Source of the DNA: Aureliella helgolandensis
GTDB lineage: Bacteria > Planctomycetota > Planctomycetia > Pirellulales > Pirellulaceae
Direction: 5' to 3'
DNA length: 64,000 bases
Assembly (NCBI RefSeq): GCF_007752135.1
Contig: NZ_CP036298.1
Span: 4,464,001 to 4,528,000, forward strand
Every line of letters begins with the position of its first letter. Positions within the stretch are counted from its first letter, which is position 1. The notes under the pieces were generated by a model. The model ran no database searches and was not told where the DNA came from. It saw only the letters and a list, made by a program, of their open reading frames with translations. Positions 29,121 to 52,665 of this stretch are shown one piece after another. Position numbers and translations under genes: made by a program.

Positions 29121-29521
29121 TCTCAAGGGCCACTGAAATCAAACGCAAATCGCTACGACCTGCATCACTTGCCCTACCTTCCATCGGCCAAGGGCAAGAG
29201 GCGGCCATTCAGCCGTTGGCAGAATCAGCACTTGCACGAAGACGGGAAGTGGGTAAGTGGGCATTGAATTGCGGGTTACAAACGGTGTCCCCTGGCCGAC
29301 GAATTAGCTCACTAAGGCAGGACGCGATATCCTGCCTTCATCCCACCGTCCAGCTGGTACTGGGCTCCCGCTCACTTCTGAGCATTCAGGGCAAACCGCG
29401 GCCGACCAACTCAGACGCAGTGACTTGAAAACCCGTCAAGCAGTTCTCGAAGCCCCAAATCTACTTTCGAGAGTGTATATCACAGCCCTCGTCCGACTTG
29501 AGACTCATCGTGGTCTAAGGA
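29121..29521. other. Gene-less convergent gap
   Basis: No gene was recognised between the fusion gene and the long inverted repeat that begins at about 29522. Confidence 0.45.
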
Positions 29522-29626
29522 CCGTCGGAACAACTACTGGCGGATAGTCGCCGAACTGCTCCGCCGGTTCGTTCGGGAGAATGCCGATCGGCGGAGCGAT
29601 CTGGCGACACTTATTGCTCCGACGAC
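29522..29626. terminator. Long imperfect inverted repeat between convergent genes
   Basis: The left arm (about 29522-29566) and right arm (about 29589-29626) pair in three blocks: GTCGGA/TCCGAC, GTCGCC/GGCGAC and GCTCCGCCG/CGGCGGAGC, with small bulges and a loop of about 22 bases. It ends one base before the DinB-like stop codon. A bidirectional terminator or a structured RNA is plausible; there is no clear U-tract. Confidence 0.55.
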
Positions 29627-39190: not shown

Positions 39191-40255
39191 ATGGACCAAG
39201 CTGAAATGTCTCGCATTCGCGAACTGCTCAACGATGGACTGGCCATCCCGGCTTGCCCTCTGGCCCTCAATGCACAGCGGTGTTTCGACGAACGACGCCA
39301 AAGGGCCTTGCTACGGTACTACTGCGCCGCCGGAGCCGGTGGAGTCGCCGTGGGGGTGCATACGACGCAGTTCGAAATTCGGCAACCGCAACACGGACTA
39401 CTCCGTCCAGTCCTCGAACTCGCCGCGGAAGAACTGCAAAATCAAGAGCGGCCACACCAAGAACACATCGTCCGTATCGGAGGAGTTGTCGGCGATGCAG
39501 TACAGGCGATGCGCGAGGCTGAACAGCTTCGCGAGCTGCGCTATCACGTCGGGCTACTCAGCTTGGCGGGCCACCAATCCGCCGATGAAACGCAGTTGAT
39601 CGAGCATTGCCGACGCGTGTCCGAAGTCCTGCCCATCATGGGATTCTACTTGCAGCCGGCCGTCGGCGGACGCCTCCTGTCCTACCGTTTTTGGCGACAA
39701 TTCTCGGAAATTGAAAATGTAGTTGCCATCAAGATCTCTCCCTTCAACCGGTATCAAACTATAGATGTCGTCCGAGCGGTGGTCGATGCTGGGCGAGCTG
39801 ATATTGCACTCTATACCGGCAATGACGACAACATCGTCGGCGACCTGTTGACCGAGTTTGTGTTTAAGGGACAGGAGGGGGAGCAGCGACGCGCCATCGT
39901 GGGCGGGCTACTCGGACACTGGGCCTGTTGGACAAGAAATGCCGTACTGCTCATGAACGAATGCAAGCGGCTGAGGGCTCTCGGAAACTTGCCGACATGG
40001 ATGTTGACGCTAGGGGCTCAAGTCACGGATACCAATGCGGCGTTGTTCGATGCGGCCAACGCATTCCGAGGCTGCATTCCGGGAATCCACGAAGTGCTTC
40101 GACGACAGGGCCTGTTGGAAGGCCTATGGTGCCTCGATCCCACCGAGGAACTGGGAACGGGCCAAATGCAAGAAATCGACCGAGTCTACCATGCCTACCC
40201 CCATCTCAATGATGATGACTTCGTAGCCGAACATCTTGATGAATGGCTAGCGTAG
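39191..40255 (+). CDS. DHDPS-family aldolase/lyase
   Basis: 354 residues from the ATG at 39191. A TTG two codons earlier overlaps the epimerase stop and is an alternative. The TIM-barrel family signatures are Lys181 in A-I-K-I-S-P-F-N-R-Y (Schiff base) and Tyr153 in F-Y-L-Q-P. It is clearly divergent from DapA and from the aldolase at 11315-12262. With the adjacent epimerase it probably handles a sugar-acid intermediate; the pathway is not identified. Confidence 0.85.
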   Translation: MDQAEMSRIRELLNDGLAIPACPLALNAQRCFDERRQRALLRYYCAAGAGGVAVGVHTTQFEIRQPQHGLLRPVLELAAEELQNQERPHQEHIVRIGGVVGDAVQAMREAEQLRELRYHVGLLSLAGHQSADETQLIEHCRRVSEVLPIMGFYLQPAVGGRLLSYRFWRQFSEIENVVAIKISPFNRYQTIDVVRAVVDAGRADIALYTGNDDNIVGDLLTEFVFKGQEGEQRRAIVGGLLGHWACWTRNAVLLMNECKRLRALGNLPTWMLTLGAQVTDTNAALFDAANAFRGCIPGIHEVLRRQGLLEGLWCLDPTEELGTGQMQEIDRVYHAYPHLNDDDFVAEHLDEWLA

Positions 40256-40557
40256 GGCTAGCACAATTCCCCTGAATCCAATGGGTGAGTCGAGTTTACG
40301 AAGACGGATAGGCCATCTGAATAGGAAGATTTCTGGCACCCCGTCTTGCCCCGAAGCTGAAAGGGCTTCCACCGCATTCGCGCTTACCTACCACTCCTTG
40401 GCGATTCTCGCCACAGCCCAAACCTACAATGCGTTACTCCCCAAAACCAGCCCAGTCGATCGGGCCTTTGCCAAAATCCATTTGCTTACCCTATTACTTT
40501 CCTTTACCTTTGAACCAGCGAGACCATCTCCCGCTTCAATAACGGCAGGGACCTCCG
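40256..40557. other. Gene-less stretch
   Basis: About 300 bases after the DHDPS-like gene. A 101-codon frame spans it but has no homology signal or ribosome binding site, and overlaps the next gene, so it was not called. Confidence 0.35.
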
Positions 40558-40854
40558 GTGCAAGTAAAGTCACAAAACCCGTCTGACATTTCTGAACGAC
40601 CGCCGAAACGACAAGCGTCGAAACACCGCATTTCAAGAGCGGTTTGGATCGGCCTCGGCATACTAATCCTTGGTTCAATGCCTCTCTTGGCAGTGATCGC
40701 ACTGGCTTGGTTGGGGCTCACTTCGGACCCAAATCCGAACCCTGTTGGGCTGGGCATCCTCCATGTTCTTACTTTCTTTCCCAGCGTTGGCATCATTGCT
40801 ATCGGAGTGCTACGCACGATCCAGCGTGCCAGATCCAAGACGAGCTTGAATTGA
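40558..40854 (+). CDS. Small two-helix membrane protein, hypothetical
   Basis: 98 residues from a GTG at 40558 with GGCAGGGA upstream. Residues 1-27 are basic and hydrophilic. Two hydrophobic helices follow (about 28-52 and 66-85), with a Pro/Asn-rich turn between and a basic tail. The topology is that of a small inner-membrane protein. No family recognised; it could be a spurious frame, but the clear two-helix pattern favours a real gene. Confidence 0.5.
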   Translation: MQVKSQNPSDISERPPKRQASKHRISRAVWIGLGILILGSMPLLAVIALAWLGLTSDPNPNPVGLGILHVLTFFPSVGIIAIGVLRTIQRARSKTSLN

Positions 40855-41310
40855 ACGATGAGGAGCAATATTCGCTAACGCCGTAGTGGACCGCAGTGAG
40901 CCGTTGTTCCTTCCTTTTCCAACTCGCCTCATAGGGAATCCTACAGCCGTGACTACCAATCCTCGATCTCCCGTATCGGTAAAAGTGACTGAGATTTCCC
41001 GTGTTGCTAACCGCTGAGCGATTGCCATGAATAATCTGAAGTAAGCATTGGTCAAAGAACGCCGCGACCATTAAGTCGCCGCGGCGTCCAATGGAAGCAT
41101 TCCAGACGGGACAGTCCCTGTACCGCGCGCCGAGATTGATACGAGCTAGGACTCAGCGATCGTATTGAGACTCGGACACTAACTCAGAAAGTGCACACAC
41201 ACACGCATCTGCATACGTAACGTCAACCTCAGCAACGACATGGCAGCCATTTACAATCGCCCTAACCATAGCCAATGCACTGGAATTGTGGGGCAAGACA
41301 AGGCCCTGCA
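40855..41310. other. Gene-less stretch before the 530-bp repeats
   Basis: No convincing gene. A GC-rich inverted repeat GCCGCG...CGCGGC lies at about 41060-41086. Confidence 0.4.
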
Positions 41311-41840
41311 TCGCGGCCCTTCCGGGCCGTAACCGCTCCTGCGACTTGCAATTCCAGTCCACTTCTCGCCTCGAAGACCAGCTACGCAGTAGCGACAGCA
41401 TCTAGCCTGGGGTGAGCGAAAACGAGTTCCACGAGTTTCCGTGTAACCCCAGGTTGTAAATCGATTGAGAAAGTGACCGAGCAGTAGAGTTATTGAGACC
41501 ATTCAAGGTTGCCGAGGTCGCAACCAGGTGGCGATACGTTCAACATTCGCAATTCTATTGGAATGAAGAGGGAGCTCTGCTTAGGAACGATGAACAGCTT
41601 CTGTGAGGTTGGAATGCCGCCATGACGTCGCAGATCCTCTTGCGCACTGGACCTCCCAGGGAAATCAAGAAACACTGACCAGCTTCGGAGCCTAAAACTT
41701 GTCCATGCAACTGGAAAACGCTAAGCACCTCCATGGATAGTCTCACCGCCGGTTGCAGCCGAAATAGAGTTGCAAGATGCTAAGGTCAGAATTCGGACGT
41801 TGGAAAACCCTATTTCAACAATCACTGAGACGCTCCCCTA
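41311..41840. repeat. 530-bp repeat, copy A (tandem with copy B)
   Basis: Copy A is followed without a gap by copy B in the same orientation; I count about 30 mismatches and no indel between them. It begins with a hairpin CGGCCC-TTCC-GGGCCG (41314-41329). It contains a larger inverted pair CCTGGGGT (41406-41413) and ACCCCAGG (41446-41453). No transposase is encoded. Short frames inside it are broken differently in each copy, so it is judged non-coding. Confidence 0.9.
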
Positions 41841-42370
41841 TCGCGGCCCTTCCGGGCCGTAACCGCTCCTGCGACGTGCAATTCCACTCCACTTTTTGCC
41901 TCGAAGACCAGCTACGCAGTAGCGACAGCATCTAGCCTGGGGTGAGCGAAAACGAGTTCCACGAGTTCACGCGTAACCCCAGGTTGTAAATCGATTGAGA
42001 AAGCGACCGAGCAGTAAAGGTATTGAGACCATTCAAGGTTGCCGAGGTCGCAATCAGGTGGCGATACGTTCAACATTCGCAATTCTATTGGAATGAAGAG
42101 GGAGCTCTGCTTGGGAACGATGAACAGCTTCTGTGAGGTTGGAATGCCGCCATGACGTCGCAGAGCCTCTTGCGCACTGGACCTCCCAGGGAAATCACGA
42201 AACACTGACCAGCTTCGGAGCCTAAAACTTGTCCATGCAACTGGAAAACGCTAAGCACCTCCATGGATAGTCTCACCGTCGGTTGCCGCTGAAATAGAGT
42301 TGCAAGATACCAAGGTCAGAATTCTCACCATGGTAGCCCCTATTTCAACAATCACTGAAACGCTTCCATC
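41841..42370. repeat. 530-bp repeat, copy B
   Basis: Second unit of the tandem. The hairpin at its left end is intact, and the CCTGGGGT/ACCCCAGG pair is at 41936-41943 and 41976-41983. A minus-strand frame of 97 codons is open here but is interrupted by a stop in copy A. It is followed immediately by the tail repeat (left copy). Confidence 0.9.
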
Positions 42371-42582
42371 ACTCGCCCCCCTGAATCTTCCCCAGTCCCA
42401 GGATAGATAACCGCGAAAGACGCCAAATATGCGAAAAGAAAAAGTAGCCGTTCACGACCTTCCTGATCCACTTACAACATCAACCGTTGCTTCAGGTTTG
42501 AGCTCAAGTTGCAGACAACCGTGAACGGTTATCCCCACCCACAACACCCTACCAAGGAAGTGGTGTGCCCCCAGCACACTCC
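42368..42582. repeat. Tail repeat, left copy
   Basis: About 215 bases nearly identical to 51259-51474. It contains a long-range inverted pair CCGTTCACG (42448-42456) and CGTGAACGG (42520-42528), and ends in an ACACC/GGTGT-type hairpin region. It lies at the left border of the saccharide cassette. Confidence 0.9.
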
Positions 42583-42591
42583 CCCCAGCAC

Positions 42592-42972
42592 ACCCACCCC
42601 GAAGGAGGCATCATGCCAGGATGGGATTATCCGGTCTTTGACACACGGTTTGGAAAAGTCGGTATGATGATCGTCTACGAGGCTTTCATTCCCGAAGTCG
42701 CACGTGAATTAAGCAACTGCGGAGCGGGGGTGCGCGCGAGACGGCTGTGGGGGCACAATCCACTGATCGGGGCGGCGCGGGCTTGCGACAATCACAACTA
42801 CGTCATCAGCAGCACTTACACGGATGTTTCATCCGACTGGATGATCTCAGTCATCTGCGGTCACAACGGAAAACCGCTGGCGCAGGTATCGGAGTGGGGA
42901 AGCGTCACGGTAGCCGAAGTGGATTTGAACCATCCCATGTACCGGTACAGTCTCGGTGATTTTAAAGCCTAG
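42592..42972 (+). pseudogene. Relic of a carbon-nitrogen hydrolase (nitrilase superfamily)
   Basis: The frame covers only the C-terminal part of a nitrilase-superfamily enzyme, from an E-G-G-x-x-P-G segment onwards. The N-terminal half with the catalytic Glu and Lys is missing and is replaced by repeat DNA ending about 10 bases upstream. At the catalytic Cys position the usual I-C-Y-D reads I-V-Y-E, so the nucleophile is lost as well. The next region (G-A-G-V-R-A-R-R) is also atypical. The final D-F-K-A and stop look like a truncated tail. No activity is expected. Confidence 0.8.
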
Positions 42973-43015
42973 ACCGCACGCCACCGGCCTACAACTCCAC
43001 AAGAGTAGGAAGTGT

Positions 43016-45583
43016 ATGTCTATGATGATTCGTATCGCTCGTTCCCGCCTTCTGTGTTGCATGGCCATCTTCTTCGTCGCACTCCAGGCGACTGCGGCGG
43101 AGCCTTCTGCGGCGAAGTCGACTCATCCGCGATTGTTGCTAACTCAAGATCAAGTGCCGCAATTCCGCGTTCGTGTCCAAGTCGACGGTAGTTTGAACAA
43201 ACGTTATTTCGATCGCATCGGCTTGTGTGCGGACCACGTCCCTGCGCCTGCTCCAGGCTGGAAGCCATTGATGGCGGACTTCATGCAATCGCCGCACTTC
43301 ATCGCGGTTGACGCCATGCGCAAGAAATTGATCGCTGCTTCCCATTCGGCGCTCAAATTTGCAATCGCCCCGGAATTCTATGATGACCATGGCACTTCCG
43401 CTGCCGCGTGTGCGATGGACATTGTCAATAAGTGGAACCCACAGTGGATCATCGACCAATACCGTCACAAGATCGACAACAGTGGCGACGATCACGAGGG
43501 CGCGCAGTTGATCATGTACATGGCCCTGGTCTATGACATGGCGTACGACAAGTTTAGCAAGACTGAGCGGCAGCAAGTGATTGACTGGCTGGCGCGAGGC
43601 GTCGTGACTGCCGCCGAATCAGAAAAACTTCTTTACGCCGCCTACGAACCGTATCCTCGACAGAATCATCAGGCGTGTCTGTTGGCCGCTTGCGGGTTGG
43701 TCGCTCTGGCAATCAAAGATGAAGTGCACTTGATCAGTGATCCGGTGAACCGTGAGACGATGCAGCGACAGTTGAAAGTGACCAACGAGAATATTCCGCG
43801 GTTCATTCTCGATCGTGCAGCGCTCGCCGACGGACGCGCGTGGGAAGGCAGTGCCTACGGGACCTACACGCTACCATTCGCGATGCTCTGGGGACGGGCC
43901 TACAACAATGCCTACGACGCTGACGTCTTTGCTGGAAAAGGAATTGAAAACATCATCCGCTGGTACGCCCACTCGCGTGCTGCGTTTGGTCTGCATCAAC
44001 TGGTGGAATACGGCGATGACTACGATCGCTATGGCGGCTTCGGCGAAATGCTGATCCTGTTTGAGCAAGGCAATGCCGACGGCCATGACCTGTGGCTGTT
44101 GGAATATTTACATCCGGGTGGGGACATGTTCGCGGGTGCTGCCAAAACCGAACAAGCCTATACGGATCCGTTTCTGTCCTACCCCTTGTTCTATCCTCAA
44201 AATCTCCAGCCGATCGGGCCAACGGCAGCGGCTCAGCAGCCAACACAGTACTTCCGTGACTTTCGTAACAAGAGCGGCGGCGAAGTTCATTTCAAGAACC
44301 AGTTCATCCAAACACCTGGCGGTGACGACACGGTGCAGATGGTCCTGTATTCGCATCGCGATGAGATCAGCAAAGGTGGTTTGGCGCAGGGCTCACTGCG
44401 ACTGTATGCTTATGGAGAAAAATTTACGGAAGAAGAAGGTCGCTCCAGTCGAAAAACTGCTTGGTGGGGATCGATGAAACAGTTCACAACATTCGATTAT
44501 TTCAATGCCGACTGTGGCAATGATGGAAGTTTGCCGAAGTATCAATTCTACGCCCAGCGCAAAAACCCCGGTCTCGGACGGCTGGCAGGGTTCATCGCTG
44601 GTGACTTCGCGGATTACGCCCGCGCCGACGGCCGTTTTCCGCTTGGCGATCCCTCGCTCAACGCCGCGCCGCATCCGAACAACAACCGCTTCCGCCTCGC
44701 TTGCTCGCCATCCGATGATCCAACTCAGCCGACGTATTGCGAACCAGTCCGGCGCGCCGATCGAATGGTAATGATGTTGAAAAGCACTGATGATAATTCT
44801 GCAGCCAAACCCTTGTTCGTGATTGTCGACGACTACAATATCAACGGCGCTGAGCAAACCTATCGTTGGCGATGGCACGCACCACGCCAGCCGATTGCCG
44901 AGCCCGGAAAGCGTCCACGCGATCCAACCAAGCACGACTTTGTGATTGACGGGGTTGGTTCAGTCGATTCGCCGATCCGCATTTATGATCCACACTTGGA
45001 TCGCACCAAATTGGAAATCACGTTCATCCAGCCTGAACAATTCGACTTGCATTTCACTCGGTTCACGCCCGAGGACGATATCAATCACGCATTGTTTGAA
45101 GCCACCAAAACGGCCGTCAATCCCCGCTTCTTCGCCGTGCTCTTCCCGCGAAAGAACGGGTTCGAGCGTCCAATGATCGAATCCATCGAGTCGACGAACC
45201 CAGCTGCCGCGGGGTGTCGAATTACTTGGAGCGATCTGGGGGTTGACCAAATTGTCACGGGGCGCGGAAAGGACGTTGCAATCGGCCCCCTCCGCACTGA
45301 TGCAAGAATGGCCGTGACTCGCACCGTTGATGGGAGTGTCGTCGCCTACGCGCTGGGCGAGGGGCGGTACCTGCACTCGGATTCACGATCGCTGGTTAGC
45401 GGAATGGACGGTGTCGCCAGCCTGTCGATGTCTGGCAAGCGGCTTTCGATATCTGGCTCGTGTCACACTGGGCGTTTCTATGGCCCTGACATAGCAACGA
45501 TCATGGTCAACAATCAGGCCGTGAGTTTTTCACGTGATGGCCAGGACGTCCTTTTTGAAATCCCACCGATCACTCCACAATGA
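43016..45583 (+). CDS. Heparinase II/III-like polysaccharide lyase
   Basis: 855 residues from the ATG at 43016, preceded by AGGAAG, and followed by a signal peptide (hydrophobic core to A-T-A-A-E). The N-terminal helical (alpha/alpha) toroid region (about 30-400) contains Y-E-P-Y-P-R-Q-N-H-Q-A-C and the conserved R-A-W-E-G-S-A-Y-G segment. The C-terminal beta-sandwich resembles the heparinase II/III-like family. Known relatives cleave uronic-acid polysaccharides such as heparin, alginate or ulvan by beta-elimination; which one is used here is unknown. It lies 43 bases after the nitrilase relic and overlaps (ATGA at 45580) a possible start of the next gene. Confidence 0.85.
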   Translation: MSMMIRIARSRLLCCMAIFFVALQATAAEPSAAKSTHPRLLLTQDQVPQFRVRVQVDGSLNKRYFDRIGLCADHVPAPAPGWKPLMADFMQSPHFIAVDAMRKKLIAASHSALKFAIAPEFYDDHGTSAAACAMDIVNKWNPQWIIDQYRHKIDNSGDDHEGAQLIMYMALVYDMAYDKFSKTERQQVIDWLARGVVTAAESEKLLYAAYEPYPRQNHQACLLAACGLVALAIKDEVHLISDPVNRETMQRQLKVTNENIPRFILDRAALADGRAWEGSAYGTYTLPFAMLWGRAYNNAYDADVFAGKGIENIIRWYAHSRAAFGLHQLVEYGDDYDRYGGFGEMLILFEQGNADGHDLWLLEYLHPGGDMFAGAAKTEQAYTDPFLSYPLFYPQNLQPIGPTAAAQQPTQYFRDFRNKSGGEVHFKNQFIQTPGGDDTVQMVLYSHRDEISKGGLAQGSLRLYAYGEKFTEEEGRSSRKTAWWGSMKQFTTFDYFNADCGNDGSLPKYQFYAQRKNPGLGRLAGFIAGDFADYARADGRFPLGDPSLNAAPHPNNNRFRLACSPSDDPTQPTYCEPVRRADRMVMMLKSTDDNSAAKPLFVIVDDYNINGAEQTYRWRWHAPRQPIAEPGKRPRDPTKHDFVIDGVGSVDSPIRIYDPHLDRTKLEITFIQPEQFDLHFTRFTPEDDINHALFEATKTAVNPRFFAVLFPRKNGFERPMIESIESTNPAAAGCRITWSDLGVDQIVTGRGKDVAIGPLRTDARMAVTRTVDGSVVAYALGEGRYLHSDSRSLVSGMDGVASLSMSGKRLSISGSCHTGRFYGPDIATIMVNNQAVSFSRDGQDVLFEIPPITPQ

Positions 45584-45636
45584 ATGAAGTAGTGAAACTC
45601 GTACTAGAATACCCGCAATTGTCAAAGAGCCAACTC

Positions 45637-47040
45637 ATGAAACTCAACTCAATCCTGCCAACAGCACTCGCCATTTTGACGTTGTTCACCAACATCTCCT
45701 CTGCCGAGGAAGCTTTGCAGCCATGGCAGGACAATCCGTGGTACTGGAGTTTCCATGGAAACCCCGTGTTACTGTTGGGCGGCAGTGATGATGACAACCT
45801 GTTTCAGTGGCCCGAGGAGCAGCTTTTGCCGCAGCTGGACCGACTGGCGGAAGCGGGTGGCAATGTCATCCGCAACACAATGAGCGACCGGAAGGACAAA
45901 GACTTCGAGCTGTATCCCTTTAAGCAACTCGACGACGGCAAGTACGATCTCAATCAATGGAACGACCGATACTGGGCTCGCTTCGAACGGATGCTGACCG
46001 AGACGGCCAAACGCAATATCGCCGTGCAAATCGAAATTTGGGACCGCTTTGACTTTTACGATCAAGAAGGTGCCGCTCGCTGGCAGATTCATCCGTACAA
46101 CCCACGTAACAACGTAAATTATACGTACGATGAATCCGCATTCGCCAAGCGGTATCCGGACCACCCTGGAGCCAACAAGCAGCCATTCTTCTTTACAACT
46201 CCCAAGCAACGAAACAACGTTGTTGTCTTACAGTATCAGCAACGATTCGTTGACAAGCTGCTGGACCATTCGCTGAAGTTTGGTCATGTGCTGTATTGCA
46301 TGGACAACGAAACCAATGGCGAGGAGGAATGGGGCCGCTACTGGGCTCAGTTTGTCAAACAACGAGCTGGCAAAGAGAACAAGACAGTTTATGTCACCGA
46401 GATGTGGGATGACTGGAATCTCGCAGATGAGGAGCACAAGCGAACCTTTGATCATCCCGAACTGTATGACTTCGTCGATGTCTCGCAAAACAACCACAAC
46501 AAAGGCCAGAAGCATTGGGACAATTTCCTGCATGTACGGAAATACCTGGCAGGCCAGCCACGTCCGATGAACACGACAAAGACGTACGGAGCGACCGGTA
46601 ACAAATTCGGCCACAACGATCAGGATGCTATCGAACGCTTCTGGCGACACCTGCTGGCCGGAGCAGCCTCTGTTCGTTTTCACCGACCGGAATCTGGGCT
46701 GGGCCTAAATGACAAAGCGGTTGCCTGCATCAAAGCGGCCCGAAAACTGGAGTCCTTGATTCCGCTATGGTCCGTCGAACCCGCCTCCGACTTGCTTTCT
46801 CAGCGGGAAGCGAACGAAGCGTATGTTGCGGCTGACAACGGGGGATCGTGTGCCGTGTATTTTCCCGCTGGTGGCGAAGTTGAACTCGACATGACGGCGA
46901 CCCAAGGTCCGCTAACGGTTCACTGGATCAACATCAACACCGGCGAATCCGGCGCACAGGAAATAATCACCGGCGGCGGCAGTGTCACGCTTTCATCGCC
47001 CGGTTCCGACAACTGGGTCGCCGCCATCGTTTCTCAGTGA
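45637..47040 (+). CDS. Secreted TIM-barrel glycoside hydrolase-like protein (apiosidase/DUF4038-like)
   Basis: 467 residues from the ATG at 45637, where a signal peptide (M-K-L-N-S-I-L-P to S-S-A-E) starts. An upstream in-frame ATG at 45580 overlaps the lyase stop and could add 19 residues. The barrel has candidate acid/base and nucleophile glutamates in M-D-N-E-T-N-G-E-E and Y-V-T-E-M-W-D-D-W, as in GH5-like/apiosidase families. A C-terminal beta-sandwich (about 380-467) may be a collagen-binding-like or carbohydrate-binding module. It is probably co-transcribed with the lyase. Exact family is uncertain. Confidence 0.75.
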   Translation: MKLNSILPTALAILTLFTNISSAEEALQPWQDNPWYWSFHGNPVLLLGGSDDDNLFQWPEEQLLPQLDRLAEAGGNVIRNTMSDRKDKDFELYPFKQLDDGKYDLNQWNDRYWARFERMLTETAKRNIAVQIEIWDRFDFYDQEGAARWQIHPYNPRNNVNYTYDESAFAKRYPDHPGANKQPFFFTTPKQRNNVVVLQYQQRFVDKLLDHSLKFGHVLYCMDNETNGEEEWGRYWAQFVKQRAGKENKTVYVTEMWDDWNLADEEHKRTFDHPELYDFVDVSQNNHNKGQKHWDNFLHVRKYLAGQPRPMNTTKTYGATGNKFGHNDQDAIERFWRHLLAGAASVRFHRPESGLGLNDKAVACIKAARKLESLIPLWSVEPASDLLSQREANEAYVAADNGGSCAVYFPAGGEVELDMTATQGPLTVHWININTGESGAQEIITGGGSVTLSSPGSDNWVAAIVSQ

Positions 47041-47132
47041 GAGACTCCGCCCTTGCTGCTGGCAAGGCTTCGTTCATGTCTTGTCCTGTGCGGCAACCGA
47101 TTTCAATTCACCCTACAGTTTCAGGTTTGGCT

Positions 47133-48575
47133 ATGACGTTGCGAATCAATCTTCTTCTCGGCCTGACATGCTTTGCTGCGTCGATCGCGGTTTCGGCGCA
47201 GGGCGAGACGGCTCCAATTTCCTTGCACCCCGGGAATTAGCATTATTTCCAATGGCGCAGCAAGCCCACCATTCTGGTGACGTCGGGCGATCATTATGGG
47301 GAGTTGCTGAATCTGAACTTTGACTACGTGCAGTACTTCGATGAATTGAAAGCTCATGGCTTGAATCACACACGCGTTTTCGCGGGTACCTATCGTGAAA
47401 ATGTTGGCGCGTTAGGAATTACCGAAAATGTGCTTGCGCCGAAGCCAGGGCGTTGCATCAGTCCGTGAGCCCCCAGCCGCGAACCGGGGTGCGCCGCAGA
47501 CGCTAATCCTTTTGATTTGACGAAATGGGATCCAGCGTGGTTCGAGCGAGTGAAAGACTTATAAACGCAGGCGGGCGATCGTGGCATCGTGGTGGAGCTC
47601 ACACTGTTTTGCCCGATGTACGACGATCAGACATGGGACTTCTGCCCGATGAACGCAGTCAACGGCATCGGCGAGGTGCCACGCGGAGAAGCCTTCACCA
47701 TGAAACACAACGACCTTCTGGACATTCAGATCGCAACCACGCAGAGAATTGTGCAGGAACTCAAAGAGTTCGACAATCTGTACTGCGAAATCTGCAACGA
47801 ACCTTACTTCGGCGGTGTCACCATGGAATGGCAGCATCGCATCGTCGACGCGATCGTGGACACGGAAAAAGATTTAGCTCAGCATCATCTGATTTCAATG
47901 AACATCGCCAACGGTCGCAGCACCGTGAAGGATCCTCATCCGGCCGTTTCCACCGTCAATTTTCATTACTGCGTGCCTCCTGATACGGTCGCGATGAACG
48001 ACGGCTTGAACAAGGTGATCGGTGAAAATGAAACCGTTTCCGTGGTTCAGCCGACGTGTTGTACCGTACGGAGGCCTGGGATTTCCTGCTTGCTGGCGGA
48101 GCTCTGTACAATAACCTTGACTACTCCTTCACCGCGAAACACCCAACCGGAACATTGCGGGACTACAAGTTGCCTGGGGGCGGCAGCGTTGAACTGAGAC
48201 AACAACTAGGGATCCTCAAAGGCTTCCTGGATGGCTTTGATTTCATCCGCAAGAAGCCCCGACGTGTCTGTTTTTCGCGCTGTAGAGCCGAAACTCACGA
48301 CCTAGGCGATTGCGGAACCGGGCAGCGCGTACGCCATGAACTTTCACGTTCCGCTTCCCAGCAAGCCCCAACATCTGCAGTCGCTGTTGAGGGAAGACGT
48401 CGAAGCCTTGGCGACGCTCAATCTGCCTGCCGGTAAATGGCGAGCAGAATGGTTAAACACGAAAACCGGGGAGAAAACCAAGCACGAATCGTTTCAACAT
48501 GCAGGTGGTGGCAGTCAAGTCAAATCGCCGAAATTCTACAACGACATCGCACTACGGCTGACAAGGCAAGACTGA
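47133..48575 (+). pseudogene. Glycosidase pseudogene (multiple nonsense and frameshift lesions)
   Basis: From the ATG at 47133 a signal peptide and then a recognisable secreted TIM-barrel protein can be followed to 48575 if lesions are ignored. In-frame stops lie at 47238-47240, 47466-47468, 47562-47564 and 48303-48305. A one-base loss is inferred near 48035 and a one-base gain near 48256, each restoring family sequence in the next frame. Recognisable motifs include I-C-N-E-P-Y-F-G-G-V and W-D-F-L-L-A-G-G. The C-terminal piece (from 48336) still ends with a proper stop. The gene is dead unless the sequence contains errors. Confidence 0.88.
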
Positions 48576-48635
48576 CCACATTCCATTTCCCTGTGACCTT
48601 CGCCCCGCAACCTGATAAAGACAAACAGACTTGGT

Positions 48636-49901
48636 ATGAAAAAACATTCGATTCATCGCCGTCAATTCATCGCCAACCAAGCGGCCCTTGCCCTCGCGGC
48701 GTATGGAAGTCCTTCTTTGGCCGCGGCAGCCGCCGAACCTTCGATTCCCGTTCGCGCGATTACGCGGGGACCGAAGCATCATTGGTTTGGGTATTATGAC
48801 AAACTGCAGTTTGACCCGACCAACCGATTCGTTTTGGGGATGCAGGTCGACTTTGAGCATCGTTCGCCGACCGTCAACGACACGATCAAGATTGGGATGG
48901 TCGATCTTCAGGATGATGACCGCTGGATCGAACTAGGCGAAAGCAAAGCTTGGGGATGGCAACAAGGCTGCATGTTGCAGTGGATCCCCGGTTCCGATTC
49001 TGAAATCATTTGGAACGACCGCATCGGAGACCGTTTTGTCGCCCGCATCATGGATGTTAAGACGCGGGAAACGCGGATCATTCCGCACGCGATCTACACC
49101 GTCAGCCCGAATGGAAAGGAAGCGGTTACCGCCGATTTTCGCCGCATCAACGATGTGCGTCCCGGCTACGGTTACGTAGGCCTGCCCGATCCCTATGCCG
49201 ATGACTTGGTACCCAACGACTCGGGGATCGTTCGCATCGACTTAACCACGGGCGAGGGAATACCGATTCTCTCGATTGCGGACGTGGCTCGCACCGGGTC
49301 CATTCCGAATGAACAATTTGGCATCAAGCACTATTTCAATCATCTCCTGTACAATCCCGATGGCTCGCGGTTCGTTGTCCTGCACCGTTGGCGTTATCCC
49401 AACGGATCACGGCTCACGCGAATCGTCACCGCAACCCGCGACGGTGAGGATGTTCGTATCGTTTGCGACAACGGCTACGCATCGCATTTCATCTGGCGAG
49501 ACAATAGACACCTATTGTCTCAATCCCGCCATTTTGATGGCAACGAAGGTTGGGGGAACTTTCTGTTCGAAGACGTCGATGGCGGCGGCGATGTTCACGA
49601 GATCGGTCGAGGCGTACTCAATTACGCCGGACATCTCAGCTATCTGCCTGGCAACAAGTGGATCCTCAACGACACTTATCCGACCGGCAAAACGCGGATG
49701 CAAACTCCGCACCTCTACGAGATTTCCTCCGGCCGTCGCATCGATCTTGGCCATTTCCCTTTGCCGCCGATTTACACTGGTGAATGGCGTGTCGATACGC
49801 ACCCTCGACTGTCGCGAGATGGAAAACTGGTTTGCATCGATTCGCCTCACGAAGATCAAGGACGTCAATTGCATTTGATCGATATCGATGGGTTGACTTA
49901 A
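48636..49901 (+). CDS. Tat-exported beta-propeller protein (oligogalacturonate-lyase/TolB-like)
   Basis: 421 residues with a twin-arginine-type N terminus (H-R-R-Q-F-I-A-N-Q) and hydrophobic core. The rest is built from repeating beta-propeller blades with recurrent motifs such as D-G-S-R-F-V-V-L-H-R and H-P-R-L-S-R-D-G-K-L-V. Relatives include TolB-like domains and oligogalacturonate lyases (PL22); a blade contains F-N-H-L-L-Y-N-P-D-G. A lyase function would fit the neighbouring heparinase-like gene but is not proven. It starts 60 bases after the pseudogene end. Confidence 0.72.
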   Translation: MKKHSIHRRQFIANQAALALAAYGSPSLAAAAAEPSIPVRAITRGPKHHWFGYYDKLQFDPTNRFVLGMQVDFEHRSPTVNDTIKIGMVDLQDDDRWIELGESKAWGWQQGCMLQWIPGSDSEIIWNDRIGDRFVARIMDVKTRETRIIPHAIYTVSPNGKEAVTADFRRINDVRPGYGYVGLPDPYADDLVPNDSGIVRIDLTTGEGIPILSIADVARTGSIPNEQFGIKHYFNHLLYNPDGSRFVVLHRWRYPNGSRLTRIVTATRDGEDVRIVCDNGYASHFIWRDNRHLLSQSRHFDGNEGWGNFLFEDVDGGGDVHEIGRGVLNYAGHLSYLPGNKWILNDTYPTGKTRMQTPHLYEISSGRRIDLGHFPLPPIYTGEWRVDTHPRLSRDGKLVCIDSPHEDQGRQLHLIDIDGLT

Positions 49902-50593
49902 AACTGTCTGCACACCATGGCGGGCAATTCGGGACGTTGACTGGTCGGTGAGTGCGGGCTTGTCGCGTGCCCGCTCAGGCAGGGGATCTGGGTTTGATCG
50001 GCGATCGCTTTTGTTATTGTCACGGGGTTGCGATGGATTGCCGCCTTTCGCTCCGTGACGTGGCCCCGCTAACGCGGTATTTTTAAAGAAAACCTAGCCC
50101 CCACGCCCTCAAGACAAGCATCCCAAATGTTAGACTTGGCATTGAATCGGCGGCTTGTCTTCCAGCTCAATCGACTACGACCCAACGGCTTAATTCTGGG
50201 GAGAGCGGGTCCAGAGAGAGTATGGGAGAGACGCAGGCTCGAAATGCTGAGTGCCAATGGGGCGATGCGGCTTAAAAGTCGCCTTGTAAAATCTGCCCCT
50301 CTCCCCCAGCCTGACCTGTGGAGGTTTCGCATCGCGAACTAACGTTCGGCGTCGGTTTTGTAATCAGCGTCATTGTGCAGCTCGTGCGATGGGAATGTCG
50401 TGATGCTACCGATTGCGAAGCAGCAAGTTGCGGCAACGCAGCCAGGGTGGGTGACGAAAAGGTGGCAAGACTCATTAATGCGATGCTGAAGCGGTTTGAG
50501 TGGCTTCCATTTTAATTTTCACTACAGAGAAGTACGTATCCAGCAGAGTTCCACCACCGAACTCATCCGCAGAGAGTCCTGACACTTGTTCTT
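49902..50593. other. Gene-less stretch before repeat copy C
   Basis: About 690 bases with no convincing gene. The short frames present have no ribosome binding site or recognised product. Confidence 0.45.
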
Positions 50594-51120
50594 CCCCCGG
50601 CTCTTCCGGGCCATAACCGCTCCTGCTACTTGCAATTCCACTCCAACTTTTGCCTCGAAGCCCAGCTACGGAGTAGCGACAGCATCTAGCCTGGGGTGAG
50701 CGAATACGAGTTCCACGAGTTCACGCGTAACCCCAGGTTGTGAATCGATTGAGAAAGTGCCCGAGTAGTAGAGCAATTGAGGCAATTCAAGTTTGCCGAG
50801 GTCGCAAGCAGGTAGCGATACGTTCAACATTCGCAATTCTATTGGAATGAAGAGGGAGCTCTGCATGGGAACGATGAACAGCTTCTGTGAGGTTGGAATG
50901 CCGCCATGACGTCGCAGATCCTCTTGCGCATTGGACCTCGCAGGGAAATCACGAAACACTGACCAGCTTCGGAGCCTAAAACTTGTCCATGCAACTGGAA
51001 AACGCTAAGCACCTCCATGGATAGTTTCACCGCCGGTTGCAGCCGAAATAGAGTTGCAAGATGCCAAGGTCAGAATTCTCACCATGGTAGCCCCTATTTC
51101 AACAATCACTGAGACGCTTC
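50594..51120. repeat. 530-bp repeat, copy C
   Basis: Third copy of the 530-bp unit, same orientation as A and B, offset by 9283-9284 bases from copy A (one indel). It carries the same inverted pair CCTGGGGT (50690-50697) and ACCCCAGG (50730-50737), but the left-end hairpin is imperfect. It is more divergent than A and B are from each other, by eye. Confidence 0.9.
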
Positions 51121-51258
51121 CCCTCTGCTTCCCAAGTCGCCATTTCCTCAGTCCGACGTGCACCTCCAATTACCACGCCTCCCACAACACCCTACCAAGG
51201 AAGTGGTGTGCCCCCAGCACACCACAACACCCCCAACACACTACCCGCACAGACCAAT
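51121..51258. other. Extra segment between copy C and the tail repeat
   Basis: About 140 bases absent from the left flank, where copy B joins the tail directly. It includes an additional partial copy of the tail's end (C-T-A-C-C-A-A-G-G-A-A-G-T-G-G-T-G-T-G) near 51191-51215. Confidence 0.6.
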
Positions 51259-51474
51259 ATCACTCGCCCCCCTGAACCTTCCCCAGTCCCAGGATAGATA
51301 ACCGCGAAAGACGCCAAATATGCGAAAAGAAAAAGTAGCCGTTCACGACCTTCCTTATCCACTTACAATTTCAACCATTGCTTCAGGTTGGAGTGTAAGT
51401 TGCAGACAACCGTGAACGGTTATCCCCACACACAACACCCTACCAAGGAAGTGGTGTGCCCCCAACACACCTTT
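51259..51474. repeat. Tail repeat, right copy
   Basis: Near-identical direct copy of 42368-42582, including the inverted pair CCGTTCACG (51339-51347) and CGTGAACGG (51411-51419). It marks the right border of the repeat-flanked block. Confidence 0.9.
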
Positions 51475-51555
51475 TGATTTTGCGGAATTGATCAGCGGAG
51501 ATTTCGTAAATCGTCATTCTCTAAATGATCCACATGCTAATTGTATTTGACTATC

Positions 51556-52665
51556 TTAGCGGTCGGCTTTCAGCGTACCGATCAGCGCTCGCAGCTGCTC
51601 CTGCTCTTCAGCACTTGCCTCGGGCAGGGCCGCGTCGTGCATTCCGGGCAATAGCAACTCCCAGACGAGGCTCAATTGCCCCTGAAGATCGCGTGCGTTG
51701 GCCGTCATTACAACCACTGCATCTTCGTCGGGCAGGACCACGCAAAATTGCCCGTTCATCCCGTCACCACGGAAGGCGTTGTGCCGACAGCGCCAGAACT
51801 GGAAACCGTACCCTTGATCCCAATCCCGACTCGGATCACTACCGTTGGAAACCTGCTTGGAGGTGGCTTGGGCAATCCACTGTGCTGGAACAATTTGCTC
51901 GCCCTCCCACTGCCCATGCTGCAAGTAGAGTTGTCCAAATTTGGCAAGGTCTTCGGTTTTTAAAAAGAGCCCGTAGCCGCCAATTGAGATCCCTTGCGGG
52001 CTAGCGTCCCAACGTGGTGCGGATATCCCCAAGGGATCAAACAATCGTGGTTGCAAGTACTCGAGCACCGTTTGTCCGGTAACCTTCTGTACAATTGCTG
52101 AGAGCATGTAAGTCGCAGGGGTGTTGTACTGAAAGTGGGTACCGGGCTTGTGGGGGACTTCATGCTCCAGAAAACTCTTCGTCCACGGTTCTTCTTTCGT
52201 CAACTTCACCTCTGCCTGATGACCGGCTGTCATGGTGAGCAGATCGCGGACTCGCATCGACTTGAGATTCGCCGAGGGTTCCGCCGGACTCTCATCGGGA
52301 AAGAAGGAGAGCACTAAATCGTCGACGCTCAACTTGCCTTCGGCAACGGCCAGCCCGACTGCAGTAGAAGTAAAGCTCTTGCTCAACGACCACAGCACGT
52401 GTGGCTTGTCGGCGGACTCGGGTGCCCACCACGCCTCGGCCACCACCTGGCCATGCCGCACCAGCATCATGCTATGGAGCGATTGGACTTCCTGATCTGC
52501 CCGCTCGATGAACTCGCGAATCGCCTTGGTAGAGACTCCCTGTGATTCGGGCGTGCTACGTGGCAGGGAGGCGGCTGCAGCAATCTCAGACTGCGCGGCG
52601 AGGGGCGCGAGGGGAATAACGACCGTTAAAGCGACCAGTAAGCAATAAAGTGTTTTCAGCGGCAC
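51556..52665 (-). CDS. Serine beta-lactamase-like hydrolase
   Basis: 369 residues from a GTG (52663-52665). A signal peptide (about 1-25) is followed by the class C beta-lactamase/PBP fold with S-L-S-K at about 93-96, Y-N-T at about 200 and, in place of H-T-G/K-T-G, a G-D-G-M-N-G-Q segment typical of an esterase-like subgroup. It is one of three serine hydrolases of this fold in the window. It lies directly outside the right repeat and is transcribed towards it. Substrate unknown. Confidence 0.87.
   Translation of the reverse strand: MPLKTLYCLLVALTVVIPLAPLAAQSEIAAAASLPRSTPESQGVSTKAIREFIERADQEVQSLHSMMLVRHGQVVAEAWWAPESADKPHVLWSLSKSFTSTAVGLAVAEGKLSVDDLVLSFFPDESPAEPSANLKSMRVRDLLTMTAGHQAEVKLTKEEPWTKSFLEHEVPHKPGTHFQYNTPATYMLSAIVQKVTGQTVLEYLQPRLFDPLGISAPRWDASPQGISIGGYGLFLKTEDLAKFGQLYLQHGQWEGEQIVPAQWIAQATSKQVSNGSDPSRDWDQGYGFQFWRCRHNAFRGDGMNGQFCVVLPDEDAVVVMTANARDLQGQLSLVWELLLPGMHDAALPEASAEEQEQLRALIGTLKADR

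Follow-up and report, generated by a model that had tools for sequence, protein, structure and literature searches.

Insertion sequences (IS) of the IS256 family encode transposases of the Mutator type (PF00872) and are flanked by target duplications of about 8-9 bp. A composite transposon is recognized by (near-)complete IS at both ends with the IS termini outermost, and MITEs by terminal inverted repeats and a target duplication in elements with no transposase. The horizontally acquired CAZyme clusters of Planctomycetota are characterized by enzyme genes at non-syntenic places, anomalous synonymous identity and gene trees in which phyla are mixed.

This article compares with these systems a locus of Aureliella helgolandensis (contig NZ_CP036298.1), located in a stretch of 64,000 nucleotides that was analyzed as a whole and is referred to as the window. 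Polysaccharide-related genes lie there between long direct repeats, and a preliminary description had proposed either an amplification/deletion unit or a non-autonomous mobile block that carries the repeats at its ends. The evidence described below makes it quite probable that the locus is a piecewise-assembled, partly borrowed gene block with a copy of one nest of decayed mobile and repetitive DNA on either side. The main comparator was Planctomycetes bacterium K23_9 (CP036526.1), which one report treats as a Stieleria, provisionally 'Stieleria marina' (PMC12254169). The features of the locus are as follows.

41310..41837, plus strand: repeat unit A, about 528 bp, in tandem with B
41615..41837, minus strand: IS256/Mutator-type remnant in A (terminus and decayed transposase start), 69% identical to the K23_9 copy, E 2e-24
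41840..42367, plus strand: repeat unit B, about 528 bp, 94.7% identical to A
41906..42053, plus strand: dispersed hairpin repeat at unit positions 67-214 of B (CCTGGGGT...ACCCCAGG), about 150 bp, also at four other genome places
42145..42367, minus strand: IS256/Mutator-type remnant in B, 69% identical to the K23_9 copy, E 2e-24
42368..42579, plus strand: left tail, a dispersed-repeat mosaic of 212 bp
42444..42532, plus strand: MITE solo half of the left tail, 88-89 bp, both terminal repeats with one mismatch
42601..43005, plus strand: nitrilase (carbon-nitrogen hydrolase) relic, residues 333-468 of a 469-aa relative; PF00795, C-terminal part only
42956..45583, plus strand: putative polysaccharide lyase, 875 aa, 52% identical to its relative in genome G013; no K23_9 counterpart found
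45580..47040, plus strand: glycosidase-like protein, 486 aa, 84% identical to K23_9 in amino acids; Collagen_bind_2 below cut-off
45662..48576, plus strand: 2.9-kb segment 84% identical in DNA to K23_9, where it is non-syntenic; probable horizontal transfer
47061..48576, plus strand: interrupted gene, homologous to a GH5-like 459-aa ORF of K23_9
48636..49901, plus strand: 421-aa ORF with no family assigned; K23_9 relative at 2.87 Mb
50598..51121, plus strand: repeat unit C (register from 50594), 94.1% identical to B by blastn
50899..51121, minus strand: IS256/Mutator-type remnant in C, 69% identical to the K23_9 copy, E 3e-25
51178..51222, plus strand: partial tail copy of 45 bp
51259..51470, plus strand: right tail, 94.8% identical to the left tail
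51335..51423, plus strand: MITE solo half of the right tail, both terminal repeats with one mismatch

The three direct repeat units reported earlier were recovered in the same orientation, with starts at 41310, 41840 and 50594/50598 and about 528 bp each. Their identities are 94.7% (A-B), 94.1% (B-C) and 92.6% (A-C) by blastn, and 94.7, 93.6 and 92.0%, respectively, over 528 ungapped columns. The E-values (0.0 for the units and 5e-92 for the tail) indicate that the repeats are not due to chance. A shared tail is present on both sides as had been described, 94.8% identical between its copies, although its length is 212 bp and not 215 bp. The genome searched was a single 8.44-Mb contig that contains the window; a search of the window for tRNA genes gave none.

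It had also been argued that recombination between the flanks would remove about 9 kb, and the geometry bears this out: B and C are spaced by 8754 bp and the tails by 8891 bp, with perfectly matched tracts of 85, 53, 50 and 49 bp between B and C and of 78 bp between the tails. Deletion of the block by this route is possible, as it is for any pair of same-orientation repeats. A more specific proposal is that the locus works as an amplification/deletion unit, in which the ~8.8-kb block is lost or multiplied in tandem under selection, through RecA-dependent recombination between the nests. Orientation and matched tracts agree with this proposal, but the same geometry would be common to any repeats so oriented, and the copies have diverged by 5-8%. 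Moreover, the genome showed no further copy of the block: the lyase gives a single match there and the nearest glycosidase paralogue is 58% identical. Evidence of amplification is thus lacking. We regard this explanation as unlikely.

The composition of the repeats is more informative. The full-length unit occurs in the genome at A, B and C only, and pieces of it are found at five other places (76-80% identity). One of its parts is the dispersed hairpin repeat, present in A and C as well as in B and with short matches in genomes G001 and G010. Another part, at unit positions ~306-528, is 66-69% identical to IS ends in G001 and K23_9 (E 4e-23 to 3e-25); the K23_9 match to unit positions 306-528 is at 4.50 Mb. 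A query with the G001 IS end returned 15 matches in the A. helgolandensis genome, three of them the units and 12 elsewhere. When the remnants were compared with the G001 transposase by tblastn, amino acid identities of 49% (A, E 8e-7), 47% (B, E 7e-6) and 47% (C, E 6e-7) were obtained; this transposase-start match is short and modest (47-49 residues at 47-49%), whereas the DNA match is strong. The preliminary description held that no transposase is present. No intact one was found, yet each of the three units contains a decayed transposase start.

In all three units the right edge coincides with the IS terminus within a few bases, the IS is truncated at the same point and the non-IS sequence ahead of it is the same. 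This common truncation and common non-IS part point to duplication of one nest that was already dead rather than to independent insertions. The same observations bear on the possibility that the locus is a relic of a composite transposon, in which two IS256-type elements moved the block together and then decayed. An IS remnant does lie on each side in the same orientation, but a truncated IS preceded by identical non-IS sequence in every unit does not fit such an origin, the left edge of A is by inspection not an IS terminus, and K23_9 has the shared genes without such flanks. Neither side has a (near-)complete IS with its termini outermost, and a composite transposon was rejected on that ground; a decayed relic of one is very unlikely as well.

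A related IS of 1474 bp is found in the same genome, with copies at 3174226, 3638450, 3976546, 4740278 and 6856836. Its ORF is a Mutator-family transposase (PF00872 at 1.6e-35), one copy (L232) is 98.5-98.6% identical to four further copies, and exact 8-bp target duplications were present in five of the five copies examined. This combination of ~98.5% identity and exact duplications suggests that the 1474-bp IS256-type element may have been active fairly recently. Separately, a candidate opposite IS256-type end was noted at 40498..40556 on the minus strand (74.6% over 59 bp, E 5e-6), in an orientation opposite to that of the remnants in the units. The possibility that the repeats encode a structured RNA was also considered: positions 40200-52000 gave no Rfam match at E<=1, and the fold of the right part of unit B was no better than shuffles (z 0.35). 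Folds of L041 and L006 did beat shuffles (z -2.62, -2.79 on the other strand, and -2.47); L041 corresponds to the IS terminus and leader and was discarded as a structured RNA. Literature searches, at the level of titles and abstract openings, gave nothing on these repeats.

The tail is a dispersed repeat in its own right. It has at least 63 matches in the whole genome down to E 7e-5, window copies included, which form at least 33 clusters when joined at 3 kb. When 33 clusters were placed at random, at least one neighboring pair fell within 10 kb in 72% of trials, and 1.2 such pairs were expected against 2 observed, one of them being that of the window. Since random placement readily gives such pairs, it is unsurprising that the tail alone should bracket 9 kb; the window's pair is, however, non-independent owing to the shared 530-bp units. 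The right tail is preceded by GCACAGACCAATA, as are copies elsewhere (GCACAGACAATA in L013), and unit B runs straight into the left tail; the junction between these two appears, on inspection, to be the derived one.

Positions 77-164 of the tail are part of an 88-bp element, of which 33 copies were counted in the 18 loci examined. This element often occurs as two direct halves that make up an element of ~345 bp with terminal repeats GTAACCGTTCACG, and it also occurs solo. The ~345-bp copies are located, among other places, at 875153-875494, 2187723-2188064 and 4568424-4568779 of the genome. Flanking 8-mers agree at 7-8 of 8 positions in seven of the eight long elements tested, whereas the best of 90 mispaired controls reached 6 positions, once. 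The terminal repeats and the matching 8-mers of the long copies identify it as a MITE family: seven of eight long copies outside the window combine terminal inverted repeats and a target duplication with the lack of a transposase. Two solo halves elsewhere in the genome were checked for a target duplication and neither had one. With one mismatch allowed, the terminal repeat was located at 65 sites in the genome, compared with 27 for its reversed control. Four pairs of opposed repeats lie 0.7-4 kb apart, all within arrays of the element itself, and no autonomous element with these ends was recognized among them. IS66, considered as the source of the MITE on account of its end features, was discarded, as the genome has no PF03050 match.

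Five genes or gene remnants are enclosed by the repeats, in agreement with what had been described (the nitrilase relic, the 875-aa ORF, the 486-aa glycosidase-like ORF, the interrupted gene and the 421-aa ORF), and it is their labels that fared unequally. A heparinase-like nature of the 875-aa protein finds a counterpart in a PDB match to heparinase II, which is weak (E 0.061), as is that to oligo-alginate lyase (E 0.3), and the structure model of this protein is too poor to be of help (mean pLDDT 34.3). The propeller label of the 421-aa ORF found no confirmation in the sequence, with no Pfam family at E<=5 and a best PDB profile match at E 0.15. The K23_9 homolog of the gene after the glycosidase scores just above the cut-off for Cellulase/GH5 (24.0 vs 23.5 bits).

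The distribution of these genes is uneven. Among 15 same-genus genomes, own included, the lyase was matched in 2 (the second being the 52% relative), the glycosidase in 10 and the nitrilase in 11, several of the latter matches being weak; a scan of genome contigs revealed no relative of the lyase. In the stretches fetched from same-genus relatives the block genes were not seen together. The two left-flank genes are adjacent in four of the six relatives fetched and never beside the right flank, and the two flanks were never together in stretches of at most 20 kb each. As for an empty site in genus members, the right-flank beta-lactamase gave five orthologue-like matches (56-71%), and none lies beside the left-flank or block genes of the window. 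Another repeat was noted at window positions 29515-29624, where 110 bp are 87.5% identical to DNA beside a full-length nitrilase paralogue (4.05 Mb of the same genome, L212 8711-8822).

K23_9 was the top match in a scan with the glycosidase alignment, among the best 80 of the 171 relatives found. In its locus the shared segment is preceded by a nitrilase relic that is shorter (77% over 231 bp and 83% over 52 bp), and the lyase is missing between this relic and the glycosidase. Whole presence versus whole absence of the lyase gene at this point (window 42956-45583 versus K23_9 locus L125 9908-10002) is, as judged from the alignment, a gene-sized insertion or deletion between the two genomes. 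In the window, the gene that follows the glycosidase is interrupted; in K23_9 its 459-aa ORF likewise stops 155 bp short of the end of the shared sequence. In K23_9 the left-flank genes are at 1.08 Mb, the shared block at 2.15 Mb and the right-flank formyltransferase and histidyl-tRNA synthetase (HisRS) at 7.06 Mb; no beta-lactamase was found beside the latter two. The repeats of the window had no match in the 21-kb K23_9 locus. In this relative, some of the block's genes thus sit apart from the flanking genes and have no such repeats beside them, which contradicts the earlier association of repeats and block.

The shared segment was further compared at fourfold-degenerate sites. The glycosidase of the window has an identity of 0.705 to that of K23_9 over 183 such sites, and two pieces of the interrupted gene, with 56 and 32 sites, give 0.625. 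The comparison genes are lower, with HisRS at 0.327, the formyltransferase at 0.284, the epimerase at 0.237, a 356-aa gene at 0.271, the 421-aa gene at 0.326 and a sixth, non-syntenic gene at 0.354; the comparison set is small, five genes plus one, and the nitrilase relic is outside the count. Unlike the glycosidase segment, the comparison genes have come close to saturation, and a transfer after the two lineages had split is therefore the simplest reading. In the glycosidase tree, which includes 48 of 86 possible rows, the window and K23_9 group together (100/100) and phyla are widely mixed. With synonymous divergence below that of the comparison genes and a non-syntenic place in K23_9, the segment 45662-48576 was probably transferred horizontally. 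Its left boundary falls inside the nitrilase relic and its right one, where homology ends, at the stop codon of the gene after the glycosidase (48576), ~2 kb short of C; neither coincides with the repeats.

These boundaries weigh against the proposal of the preliminary description that the block is a non-autonomous mobile element of a novel kind, with the repeats as recognition sites. Confinement of the full unit to this locus and a signature of horizontal transfer in part of the block speak for it, and the former leaves some room for a specific link between unit and block. However, the segment shared with K23_9 starts and stops at points other than the repeats, the lyase is missing from K23_9 and the K23_9 relative of the 421-aa ORF is elsewhere. 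The search of the units and tail against the complete genome counts against it too, as the tail and pieces of the unit are dispersed even though the full-length unit is not. A block driven by its repeats is therefore unlikely, and we find the version with recognition sites scarcely credible.

The explanation that we favor is a duplicated nest around a mosaic of genes. The original nest would have contained, besides the dispersed hairpin repeat, that end of a dead IS256/Mutator-type IS at which the transposase begins, and the tail with its MITE half. After truncation of the IS it would have been duplicated locally, with A and B in tandem and C ~8.75 kb away, either by homologous recombination or by an IS-adjacent deletion at the junction of B and the tail. 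Divergence among the repeats (5-8%) is lower than in the shared segment (16%), which suggests that the nest duplication is the younger event, unless gene conversion homogenized the copies; conversion could lead to an underestimate of the age of the repeats. The enclosed genes would have been put together piecewise: the glycosidase and the interrupted GH5-like gene would have been exchanged horizontally with a Stieleria lineage, probably along with the nitrilase relic next to them, acquisition by A. helgolandensis being the presumed direction, and the lyase and the 421-aa gene would have separate histories. A variant in which the nests are recurrent docking sites, such that the block plus one nest circularizes by homologous recombination and reintegrates at other nests, strikes us as highly improbable; if true, debris of dead IS and MITEs would be a generic platform for the exchange of polysaccharide-enzyme genes in Pirellulaceae.

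With a duplicated nest around a mosaic of genes as the preferred explanation, the locus illustrates that nests of decayed mobile DNA can pass for the termini of a novel mobile element. It also provides one case of probable gene transfer that involves a Stieleria lineage and whose edges do not depend on the repeats. A minor lead of its own is the ~345-bp MITE family, which has a solo 88-bp form and for which no autonomous partner was found.

In relation to known systems, the genome contains a MITE family of ~345 bp with GTAACCGTTCACG termini and 8-bp target duplications in seven of eight long copies; the window differs from this pattern in having solo 88-bp halves only, and an autonomous partner was not identified in the genome. 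The units resemble the IS256 family in the homology of their terminus and transposase start, and related 1474-bp copies with 8-bp target duplications are present in the genome; they differ from it in that ~220 bp are left per unit and an intact transposase is absent. The enclosed genes share with the horizontally acquired CAZyme clusters of Planctomycetota the non-syntenic places, the anomalous synonymous identity and the phylum-mixing tree, and are set apart from them as a mosaic whose members differ in history and are in several cases decayed.
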